Below, in pieces: positions 3,596 to 7,761 of a stretch of DNA of 20,311 bases (the first letter of the stretch is position 1; each line of letters begins with the position of its first letter). The notes below the pieces were generated by a model that made no database searches, was not told where the DNA came from, and was given only the letters and a program-made list of their open reading frames with translations. Both the position numbers and the translations under genes were made by a program. Source of the stretch: a virus; IMG/VR virus record IMGVR_UViG_3300045952_000104, positions 1 to 20,311 of that record; one strand, given 5' to 3'.

Positions 3596-5155
3596 ATGGC
3601 GGTCACTCGGACCGGAGGGACTAGCAGCAACCTCTCGTCGGGGACATCGAGTCCGGTCGATGTCGCGTTCACCCTGCCTGGAGGGACGGACTATCTGCTC
3701 GTCTGCTTCAGTCTCGGACTAGCGGGCGGCGCGATCTCCTCCGTCACATGGAAGCCGGACTCCGGCGACGCCTCGAAGAACCAGTCGCTATCCCTCCTCG
3801 CCCGGAAGGACGGGACCGGGGATGTCGAGATGTGGGGACTCAAGAACCCGACCGCGACCGTGACTGGGAGCGTCGTGACTCATGCCCACACGGGCGGCGC
3901 GAAGCGCGTCATGGGGATTCACGCGCTCGGAGGCGTCCTGAGCGCGGGGACTCCCGCGAGTACCACATGGAACACGACCTCCGGGAGCGTCGCTCCAGCG
4001 AGCGAGTCCGGCGCGCTCGTCTTCGATGTCCTCTACGGGCAGAACAGTACCGGGACCTACACGGGCGGCTCGACTGAGCGGTGGGATACGAACACGACCG
4101 GAGGCCTGAACAACCTCCGGGGATGCGGGCAACAGGCGACGGGAGCCTCGCCTACGGTGACGATGTCCTGGACGACCCCATCGACGAACTGTACGCAACT
4201 GGCGATCTCGTTCAATCCGTCGAACCCTCAACTCGTCACCCCGCCGACGGCGTCCCTCGTCACGACGAAGTTCGCGCCGCAAGTCAACCTCGGGATCATC
4301 CCTCCGACCCGGAGTCTGACGGCGACGGCGTTCGCGCCGACGGTGACGGCGAGCGACCACAAGCGGGCGACTCCCCCGACGGCGGCGCTGACGCTGACGA
4401 CCTTCGCGCCGACCGTGACGGCGACGGCGAACGCTCCGTATGTCCCGGGGACTGCGTCCCTGACGCTGACGGCCTTCGCGCCGACCGTCTCGACGCCGGT
4501 CCTCCTGACGCCGACGACGGCGAGCCTGACCCTGACGATCTTCGCGCCGACCGTCTCGACCCCGCAGACGGTCGTCCCTGGGACGGCGTCCCTGACCCTG
4601 ACCGGCTTCGCTCCGTCTGCGTCGATCGGCGAGATCGTCACGCCGGGGACGGCGTCCCTGACCCTGACGGCCTTCGAGCCGACGGTCCTCACCCCGACGA
4701 CGGTCGTCCCTGGAACGGCGTCCCTCACTCTGACGGGCTTCGAGCCGTCCGTCCTGACTCCGGTCCTCGTCGTCCCTGGAACGGCCTCTCCGCTCGTTCT
4801 GACGGGCTTCGAGCCGACGGTCTCCATCATGAACCTCGTCGTCCCGGGGACGGCGTCTCTCGTCCTGACCGGCTTCGAGCCGACCGTCCTCACCCCGCAG
4901 ACGGTCACGCCGGGGACGGCGGCGCTCGTCCTCGCGGCGGAGGCTCCGTTCGTCCTCGTCCAGGGACCGGGCGTCTTCGGCTCGTTCCGGCCCTACGCTC
5001 CGGTCCAGGGGTCGATCGCGGAGGGCGGCGACGGAACCGGCGGGACCGTCGCTCCGGCGGAGCGGTCGTCGGGGTCCATCGCTCCGGTCGAGCGGATCGG
5101 CTCGACCCTGGAGCCGGAGCCGACCGGGATCATCCGAGGCGAGATCGAGGGCTGA
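3596..5155 (+). CDS. Repeat-bearing virion protein, possible head fibre or adhesin
   Basis: This 519-residue protein starts three bases after the previous stop. Residues 1 to about 205 form a beta-rich globular part containing TDYLLVCFSLG, VTWKPDSGDASKNQSLSLLA and TVTMSWTTPSTNCTQLAISF, reminiscent of phage lectin-like or fibre-base domains. Residues about 215-460 are roughly eleven tandem repeats of mostly 22 residues with core PGTASLTLTxFxPTV. The last 60 residues hold a second, shorter repeat pattern around GSIAPVER. Gly/Thr/Pro/Val-rich repeats of this kind are typical of surface-exposed rods. Its position between portal and capsid, away from the other fibre genes, is unusual and favours a head-attached appendage. 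Which surface it occupies is inference. Confidence 0.6.
   Translation: MAVTRTGGTSSNLSSGTSSPVDVAFTLPGGTDYLLVCFSLGLAGGAISSVTWKPDSGDASKNQSLSLLARKDGTGDVEMWGLKNPTATVTGSVVTHAHTGGAKRVMGIHALGGVLSAGTPASTTWNTTSGSVAPASESGALVFDVLYGQNSTGTYTGGSTERWDTNTTGGLNNLRGCGQQATGASPTVTMSWTTPSTNCTQLAISFNPSNPQLVTPPTASLVTTKFAPQVNLGIIPPTRSLTATAFAPTVTASDHKRATPPTAALTLTTFAPTVTATANAPYVPGTASLTLTAFAPTVSTPVLLTPTTASLTLTIFAPTVSTPQTVVPGTASLTLTGFAPSASIGEIVTPGTASLTLTAFEPTVLTPTTVVPGTASLTLTGFEPSVLTPVLVVPGTASPLVLTGFEPTVSIMNLVVPGTASLVLTGFEPTVLTPQTVTPGTAALVLAAEAPFVLVQGPGVFGSFRPYAPVQGSIAEGGDGTGGTVAPAERSSGSIAPVERIGSTLEPEPTGIIRGEIEG
4238..4966 (+). repeat. About eleven tandem 66-base repeats inside the 3596 gene
   Basis: The encoded unit is about 22 residues, for example VPGTASLTLTGFEPTVLTP. 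The first three copies are most diverged and slightly longer, copies four to ten are closest, and the last is degenerate. Identity is higher at protein than DNA level, and copies differ at many third positions, so the array looks old rather than freshly expanded. Boundaries are approximate. Confidence 0.85.
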
Positions 5156-5813: not shown

Positions 5814-6048
5814 GATCGGAGACGGGCCGGGACGAGCCGTCGGCGCTGCGCGATGCGGCGGTGGGTCCGAACCCTCGGGACCGATCCGTCCCTCGGGACT
5901 GATCGGGAGGCCATGACTCCCGGCCCTAGACACGCGCCGACCTGATCGGCTACTCTCGCGGCGAACTGAAGTATCGACCGACGCAGGACCTCAGAGTCCG
6001 TCGGGCAACGGAAGGCCTCCGAGCCTACGCGCTAGGAGGTCTTTCTCT
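5814..6048 (+). other. 235-base non-coding gap before the capsid gene
   Basis: I see no convincing gene here. It holds two copies of CCCTCGGGAC (5872-5881 and 5890-5899), 18 bases apart. A GGGAG/CTCCC-type stem follows at about 5904-5922, with a seven-base loop and no T-run. The gap ends in the ribosome-binding-site hairpin at 6013-6042. No TTGAC-type promoter was found. It most likely acts as leader or intercistronic regulatory RNA for the capsid gene. Confidence 0.5.
6013..6042 (+). promoter_or_regulatory. Hairpin that masks the capsid-gene ribosome binding site
   Basis: AGGCCTCC (6013-6020) can pair over 8 bp, with one G-U pair, with GGAGGTCT (6035-6042) across a 14-base loop. The 3' arm contains the near-perfect Shine-Dalgarno AGGAGGT (6034-6040), which is eight bases from ATG 6049. 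Initiation of the capsid fusion could therefore be gated by RNA folding. Confidence 0.5.
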
Positions 6049-7761
6049 ATGTCAGACGAAGAGACGGTCGATCTCGAACCGAGAGAGACCGACGCAGTCG
6101 AGGCAGAGGTCCAGGTCCGCGACGCTGCGCTCCGCGAGGTCGAGTTCCGGATCATGCCGTGGAACACTCCCGTCAACACGGTCTTCGGGCCGGAGGAGTT
6201 CGACCGTGGAGCCTTCGCTGAAGTCGATCCGAAGAAGGTCCTTCTCATGGGACCGGAACACGAGGCCCACTTCGGCGTCGGTCAGGACGGGAAGCCTCGT
6301 CTCACTCGGCGTCCGATCGGGCGGGGGAAGTGGCTGGAGGAGCGCGACGACGGGGCCTACATGGGCTTCCGAGTGGCGGCGACTCAGGCCGGGGACGAGT
6401 ACCTCGTCCTCGCTCAGGAAGGGGTCATCGACTCGGCCTCGGTCGAGTTCGTGGAGCGTCTAGGCGGGACGCGCTACACGGTGAAGAACGGGAGGCGGCA
6501 CAAGGTCCACGCGCGCGTCGATCTCCCGGCAGTCTCGCCTACATACCGACCGGCCTATCCAGGCGCGGCGGTGATCGCAGTCCGCTCGGCGGAGGAGGAA
6601 GAGGAACCGATGGCAACTTCAACGAAGGCGGTCCAGGAGGACCCGGCTCCCGAGCCGACGCCTCCCGACGAGCCTCAGGAACCGGAGAAGGTTCCGGAGG
6701 GCATCCAGGCCCGCTCGATCCAGGGCTACTTCGACCGGATGGACGCGAGCCTCGCGGACTTCGCGGAGAAGTTCGTCTCCCGGCTGGAGTCCGTCGAGGA
6801 GCGGACCCGGTCGCAGTTCATCGTCCCCGCAGTCGAGGACGAGGCTCCTTCGACCTCGATCGGCGAGTGGACGGCTCTCGTCTTCAAACTGCTCTCCGGG
6901 GATCGCATCCCTGAGTCGCAGATGCGGACGGTCGCCGACCTGATCACCCCGGACAACGCGGGCGTCGTTCCGGAGGCCTTCGTCTCCGAACTGCGCGGCG
7001 TCATCGACCCGAGCCGTCCGTTCATGGAGTCCACGCGACAACTGCCGATGCCGACCTCCGGGACCTCGATGCGTGTCCCGAAGATCACGCAGCGTCCGAC
7101 CGTCGCGGAGCAGGAGGACGAGAAGGACGAACTCTCGTCTCAGAAGACGATCATCACTTCCGAGACCTTCGAGATGAAGACGAAGGGCGGAGTCGGGGAC
7201 CTGTCGCTTCAACTGCTGAAGCGGTCCGATCCGTCGTTCCTCGATCTGTATGTCCGGCTCCTGGCCGAGGCCTACGCGATCGAAACGGACGACGAGGCGG
7301 TCCACGAACTGATCGACGCGATCGGTTCGGTCGGAGCGGCAGACCCGATGGACCCGGAGAACCTCGCGCTCGGCGCGTCGTTCCAGACTTCGTTCGACGC
7401 GATCCGTCGTCCTCCGGACACGATCTGGCTCTCGACGGAGGCCGTCGGTTCGTTCATCGACGCGAAGGCGACGGGGACGAACGCTCCGCTCTACCCGGGC
7501 CTTCAGGCCTCGGCGACGGCGGCGGGCGGGATCACGGGGACGATCTCCGGACTCCGGCCCGTTCATGTTCCGGCGCTCGACGCTCACGGGGCCTACGCGA
7601 TCGTCGGACCGTCGTCCGGCTTCGCATGGGCGGAGGACGGAACCTACACCCTCCAGGTCGATGTCCCGGCCCGCGCGGGTCGCGATGTCTCGATCGTCGG
7701 GATGGTGTGGTTCGTTCCCTGGTATCCCGACGCGTTCTCTCTCTACAATGTGGCCTCCTAA
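6049..7761 (+). CDS. Fused prohead protease, scaffold-like linker and HK97-fold major capsid protein
   Basis: This 570-residue polyprotein builds and matures the capsid. Residues about 20-180 match the prohead serine protease family (U35/S78): EFRIMPWNTP, LLMGPEHEAHFG with likely catalytic H71, and GVIDSASVEFV with likely nucleophile S131. Residues about 185-280 are acidic, Pro/Glu-rich then helical (FDRMDASLADFAEKFVSRLE), like the HK97 delta/scaffold region. Residues about 285-570 are the capsid domain, with VPEAFVSELRGVIDPSRPFM, the SETFEMKTKGG strand and a closing DVSIVGMVWFVPWYPDAF. The strong ribosome binding site AGGAGGT lies inside a hairpin. An internal ATG at 6610 has its own ribosome binding site and may make capsid alone. 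Connector genes follow 29 bases later. Confidence 0.92.
   Translation: MSDEETVDLEPRETDAVEAEVQVRDAALREVEFRIMPWNTPVNTVFGPEEFDRGAFAEVDPKKVLLMGPEHEAHFGVGQDGKPRLTRRPIGRGKWLEERDDGAYMGFRVAATQAGDEYLVLAQEGVIDSASVEFVERLGGTRYTVKNGRRHKVHARVDLPAVSPTYRPAYPGAAVIAVRSAEEEEEPMATSTKAVQEDPAPEPTPPDEPQEPEKVPEGIQARSIQGYFDRMDASLADFAEKFVSRLESVEERTRSQFIVPAVEDEAPSTSIGEWTALVFKLLSGDRIPESQMRTVADLITPDNAGVVPEAFVSELRGVIDPSRPFMESTRQLPMPTSGTSMRVPKITQRPTVAEQEDEKDELSSQKTIITSETFEMKTKGGVGDLSLQLLKRSDPSFLDLYVRLLAEAYAIETDDEAVHELIDAIGSVGAADPMDPENLALGASFQTSFDAIRRPPDTIWLSTEAVGSFIDAKATGTNAPLYPGLQASATAAGGITGTISGLRPVHVPALDAHGAYAIVGPSSGFAWAEDGTYTLQVDVPARAGRDVSIVGMVWFVPWYPDAFSLYNVAS
6610..7761 (+). CDS. Probable internally initiated capsid protein (383 aa, nested in frame)
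   Basis: ATG 6610 is in frame with the fusion gene, at its residue 188, exactly between the protease and the scaffold/capsid part. It is preceded by a long purine run, GGAGGAGGAAGAGG (6591-6604), five bases upstream. The first codons (GCA ACT TCA ACG) are unusually A/T-rich compared with the GCG/ACG/TCG used everywhere else, a common feature of real initiation regions. The product would hold the delta-like region and the whole capsid domain. This would allow many capsid copies per protease, like the nested scaffold of the lambda C gene. It is inferred, not demonstrated. Confidence 0.5.
   Translation: MATSTKAVQEDPAPEPTPPDEPQEPEKVPEGIQARSIQGYFDRMDASLADFAEKFVSRLESVEERTRSQFIVPAVEDEAPSTSIGEWTALVFKLLSGDRIPESQMRTVADLITPDNAGVVPEAFVSELRGVIDPSRPFMESTRQLPMPTSGTSMRVPKITQRPTVAEQEDEKDELSSQKTIITSETFEMKTKGGVGDLSLQLLKRSDPSFLDLYVRLLAEAYAIETDDEAVHELIDAIGSVGAADPMDPENLALGASFQTSFDAIRRPPDTIWLSTEAVGSFIDAKATGTNAPLYPGLQASATAAGGITGTISGLRPVHVPALDAHGAYAIVGPSSGFAWAEDGTYTLQVDVPARAGRDVSIVGMVWFVPWYPDAFSLYNVAS

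Follow-up and report, generated by a model that had tools for sequence, protein, structure and literature searches.

A phage gene that encodes a prohead protease, a scaffold, and an HK97-fold major capsid protein in one open reading frame very probably yields two in-frame products: a 570-residue protease-scaffold-capsid fusion and a 383-residue scaffold-capsid precursor, predicted to begin at an internal start codon. The gene lies in a 20,311-base virus record with a G+C content of about 67%, which is referred to here as the window. Use of the internal start is strongly suggested by its conservation, and that of its codon choice and its position at the protease/scaffold junction, among related fusion genes. 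The fusion gene itself is already known in small phages; our searches of the open-access literature found no report of an internal start within such fusions.

The open frame runs without interruption through the protease region and the HK97-fold capsid domain. When compared with PHROGs, its translation matched phrog_2263 (major head protein) over residues 22 to 551 (E = 7.6e-51) and, more weakly, phrog_80 (head maturation protease; E = 6e-9). The Pfam S78 profile matched 18 of 26 fusion proteins, and the window protein alone scored 18.2 bits, just under the cut-off of 21; the expected S78 catalytic pair, His71 and Ser131, did not vary across the 26 proteins. An AlphaFold2 model of the fusion protein, built from 20 sequences (mean pLDDT 68.8), placed a beta-rich protease fold at residues 30 to 179, a helix at 224 to 254, and a capsid domain that extends to the C-terminal end. 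Confidence was low (pLDDT <50) over residues 180 to 235, with no secondary structure before 224. Foldseek comparison of the capsid part with the PDB returned phage Cozz, HK97, Bxb1, and other HK97-fold capsids (best E = 1.7e-10). The coordinates of these features are collected in the table.

Features of the protease-scaffold-capsid fusion gene (positions in the window)
Feature	Positions	Strand	Basis
Ribosome binding site for full-length product, AGGAGGT	6034..6040	+	Sequence; pairing -11.4 kcal/mol
Protease-scaffold-capsid fusion gene, 570 aa	6049..7761	+	PHROGs matches, translation
S78-type prohead protease domain, residues 28-179	6130..6585	+	Profile matches, model
Putative catalytic His71	6259-6261	+	Invariant in fusion proteins
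Putative catalytic Ser131	6439-6441	+	Invariant in fusion proteins
Disordered Glu/Pro-rich linker, residues 180-223	6586..6717	+	AlphaFold2 model
Internal purine-rich ribosome binding site (predicted)	6591..6606	+	Pairing -11.0 kcal/mol; purine run in relatives
Internal start codon ATG, codon 188	6610..6612	+	ATG/GTG in all 10 non-redundant fused genes
Predicted nested product, 383-residue scaffold-capsid precursor	6610..7761	+	Inference from conserved start
GCA, second codon of predicted short product	6613..6615	+	7/7 alanines in column are GCA
Scaffold helix, delta-domain-like, residues 224-254	6718..6810	+	Model; role by analogy with HK97 delta domain
HK97-fold major capsid domain, about residues 271-570	6859..7758	+	Foldseek

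With an S78-type protease carrying His and Ser, and an HK97-fold capsid domain in the protease's own frame, the window gene belongs with the protease-scaffold-capsid fusions of small actinophages. These fusions are described from several clusters in PMC7302621 and PMC5513430; S78 protease, scaffold, and HK97 capsid form one gene in clusters EE, AN, AX, FE, CW, DM, and RRH1 and also in AM, AU, and EL. In the descriptions consulted, they are treated as a single fusion protein and no internal start is mentioned, whereas the window gene has a predicted internal start. Scanning bacterial genomes with the whole fusion protein identified no relative, and searching phage records at the DNA level with the protease part identified no match.

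The ATG at 6610 shares its frame with the ATG at 6049 and is codon 188 of 570, which leaves 383 residues for a product that begins there. In the AlphaFold2 model, residue 188 falls in the low-confidence linker (180 to 235) between the protease beta fold and the helix from 224, in agreement with an earlier sequence-only reading that had placed this ATG at the protease/scaffold boundary. That reading had also pointed to a long purine-rich ribosome binding site, and a 16-base purine run, GGAGGAGGAAGAGGAA, is indeed present, with AGGAGG at 6593 to 6598, 11 nt upstream of the ATG. Computed against a 16S tail that may not be the host's own, the pairing energy of this run was close to that of the gene's own start; at the other listed ORF starts of the window, values ranged from +0.4 to -11.9 kcal/mol, and only one was stronger than the internal site. 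The RNA around the internal ATG was unusually open (top 1%). The same reading had drawn attention to A/T-rich codons after the ATG; the five codons that follow it are A/T-rich in the window (5th percentile within the gene), but this property was not common to the relatives, and we rejected it as a conserved feature.

To assess conservation among close relatives, we scanned viral contigs with a profile and obtained ten further fused relatives (L017 to L026) that were 50 to 64% identical to the window protein in the best segment. L022 duplicates L021 and was left out, so that there were ten non-redundant genes including that of the window. Another close relative (L001), at 95% identity, was too similar to inform. 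The sequence-only reading, which proposed the fusion and a capsid precursor as two products of this gene, had stated that loss of the internal start among relatives would count against it. We found the opposite, in support of that proposal: a start codon was kept at codon 188 in all ten genes (ATG in five, GTG in five), and a comparable purine run was present as well, weaker in L025, where pairing at the internal start was -4.6. Among 524 ungapped columns, codon 188 was the sole one with a start codon in every gene, and on the tree of the fused genes, ATG and GTG must have been exchanged at least twice. All five valines at this position were encoded by GTG, which accounts for 28% of valine codons, and all seven alanines at the codon that follows were encoded by GCA, which accounts for 11% of alanine codons. 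Codon 188 was the only one of 32 valine columns to be 100% GTG, and the codon after it was the only one of 47 alanine columns to be 100% GCA. Under site independence, the probability of these patterns is about 0.0016 for GTG and 2e-7 for GCA, although the counts come from related, not fully independent sequences, so that the true figures are less extreme.

Shine-Dalgarno strength at the junction did not exceed that of synonymous-codon shuffles (combined p = 0.96) because the Glu-rich peptide alone makes such sites. Since shuffles of the same peptide were equally strong, we did not take this strength as evidence by itself, and the purine run alone could thus be a by-product of the Glu-rich linker. 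We nevertheless give very little credence to the view that no initiation occurs and that purine run and start codon are either such a by-product or a site where ribosomes pause for a domain to fold. This view leaves unexplained the restriction of the Met/Val exchange to ATG and GTG, the GCA second codon, and the excess of junction starts over capsid segments and other frames (see below). The signal above chance is the conserved start codon together with the codon choice around it.

Distant fusion families showed a similar arrangement. Of 176 ORFs with matches to both protease and capsid references, we retained 109 that were non-redundant; the P[A]Y/F motif at the end of the protease served as anchor, and Shine-Dalgarno-like sites were called at a threshold of -4.5 kcal/mol, both of which were our choices. 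In the EE-type and Gordonia-type families, in-frame ATG or GTG codons with a Shine-Dalgarno-like site clustered 20 to 39 residues past the protease end, a junction bin that was prominent along with the one at the gene's own start, and almost no such starts occurred in the other two frames of the junction. All 10 genes of the close clade had an in-frame start with such a site in the junction interval, as did 47/66 and 32/33 genes of two other fusion families. Capsid segments of the same size in the same genes contained one in 17%, 33%, and 22% of cases (10-, 66-, and 33-gene families, respectively), and the +1/+2 junction frames contained one in 3/0, 8/0, and 6/0 genes. Valines with an upstream Shine-Dalgarno-like stretch were encoded by GTG in 24 of 41 cases at the junction versus 126 of 360 elsewhere (p = 0.003), and in this larger fusion set the excess of Shine-Dalgarno strength at the junction was moderate. 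Two EE-type genes (L238 and L246) have a junction ATG at which the site is weak. A mixed alignment that was tried for a profile search contained no stretch of sufficient conservation. The junction start was absent from roughly one third of Gordonia-type genes, those of EricDab, SallySpecial, and Emperor among them; thus, fusion phages can live without one. Collectively, these comparisons confirm, at the level of sequence, that an internal initiation signal is conserved in an already known type of fusion gene.

A junction ATG with a purine run was also present in two Lactococcus phages, Q54 (orf21, M144) and Nocturne116 (ORF18, M145; PDB 9sz9, 9sza), whose protease-capsid fusions are 516 to 517 residues long and which, unlike the window phage, are low-GC Firmicutes phages. 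For these two phages, the protease-capsid fusion was only suggested by the authors (PMC8306868). The solved Nocturne116 capsid (PDB 9sz9/9sza) is deposited as one 516-residue major capsid chain, protease part included.

The conserved junction could instead reflect protein processing. Here, only the fusion would be made, each capsid subunit would once have carried a protease, and the protease would cleave itself at the junction, with [Met/Val]-Ala after the acidic stretch as the cleavage site. A protease could recognize Met or Val followed by a small residue in an acidic, disordered linker, and autocatalytic cleavage has been proposed for the capsid polyprotein of Pseudomonas phage PAJU2, a proposal cited in PMC8306868. 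The Gordonia-type fusions that have no start are consistent with self-cleavage, as is Pseudomonas phage MD8, whose gp5 holds protease, scaffold, and capsid in a single gene (PMC8508860) and which, by eye, has no clear junction start and ribosome site; on these grounds, we did not count MD8, whose protease is ClpP-like and not S78-type, as an independent example of internal initiation. A cleavage site, however, needs neither GTG over other valine codons nor GCA over other alanine codons. Furthermore, the residues around the start vary between families (the one after it is Ala or Gly in the window's clade and Thr, Asp, Glu, Pro, Asn, or Ser in others), while the start codon and purine run persist. 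We consider it improbable that self-cleavage takes the place of internal initiation; as an addition to the internal start, cleavage at the junction is possible.

Initiation at two sites in one gene, which we favor, would have simple consequences for head assembly. Ribosomes that start at ATG 6049 would make the fusion, and those that start at ATG 6610 would make the scaffold-capsid precursor. Because the scaffold and capsid parts are common to both products, the two would co-assemble into one procapsid. The short form would predominate in it. The fusion would bring a sub-stoichiometric dose of protease into the procapsid, and the protease would then remove the scaffold segments and itself. Of this two-product arrangement, we infer the use of the start, the ratio of the products, their co-assembly, and the cleavages.

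Nested head genes have precedents. In phage lambda, an in-frame start inside the protease gene C gives a shorter product, Nu3, with the same C-terminus; the overlap of C and Nu3 was reportedly described by Shaw and Murialdo in 1980. The comparison with lambda-like nested scaffolds made in the sequence-only reading is apt for the in-frame nested start: at the level of sequence, the window gene likewise has an in-frame boundary start and a shared C-terminus, and the start is conserved among relatives (10/10, 32/33, and 47/66 genes). It does not hold for the product. Nu3 is the scaffold alone, with the capsid protein E separate, whereas the frame from 6610 holds the whole HK97 capsid domain, and the predicted nested product includes scaffold and major capsid protein; thus, the window gene would resemble lambda C/Nu3 in how it works but falls outside that type. 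The lambda protease also belongs to another family than the S78 type of the window. Herpesvirus UL26/UL26.5 combines a protease-scaffold with an abundant nested scaffold that has the same C-terminus and dilutes the protease. The window gene is like this pair in its predicted nested form with a shared C-terminus, but the herpesvirus short form, UL26.5, has its own transcript and is without capsid protein.

Relatives with separate genes suggest where the internal start came from. Their capsid gene's best start often lies about 100 nt past the protease stop, and at 13 of 59 such loci (some duplicates), protease and capsid share a reading frame that is divided by a single stop codon. The internal start may thus be the capsid gene's original one, plausibly retained when a formerly separate capsid gene became part of the fusion. 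L035, L036, L050, L062, and L095 are among the in-register loci and are one mutation short of fusion. As a tentative generalization, about which we have more doubt than confidence, small phages might fuse successive head genes by loss of stop codons while each start is kept, which would give one frame with nested products at a fixed ratio. Most S78 protease-capsid fusions would fall under this scheme, across a range from actinophages to lactococcal phages, and some Gordonia phages would take it further, to a holin-like segment that precedes the protease and has an internal start of its own.

The one-to-one protease-capsid annotation of this whole phage class leaves open how a shell holds hundreds of proteases. 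A conserved second start, if true, would be a simple answer to this stoichiometry, with many shell subunits per protease, and would serve as a model for how gene fusion is tolerated where copy numbers must differ. The annotation of these capsid genes would also be corrected across many phage genomes, and solved capsids such as PDB 9sz9 would be affected in how their chain is defined.

The annotated protease-capsid genes of EricDab (L007), SallySpecial (L012), and Emperor (L013) carry an extra N-terminal, membrane-spanning, holin-like segment, after which an in-frame ATG with AAGGA (M117, M134, and M121, respectively) lies just before the protease. In these phages, annotation may have set the start too far upstream, or the gene may be a fusion of three genes. 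A similar segment is present at the N-terminus in Coeur (L006).

Elsewhere in the window, a 927-residue portal ORF (51-2834), whose N-terminal half has no family match, overlaps ORF 61-1482 in another frame. We rejected it as a further fusion: ORF 61-1482 is probably the terminase gene, the N-terminal half of the portal ORF looks like an out-of-frame reading of it, and a portal gene start near ATG 1485 is more likely. A 519-residue ORF (3596-5155), for which no family match was found, is situated between portal region and capsid gene; it contains about eight 22-residue repeats, with a 66-bp tandem array at 4378 to 4921 (TASLTLTAFAPTV-like).
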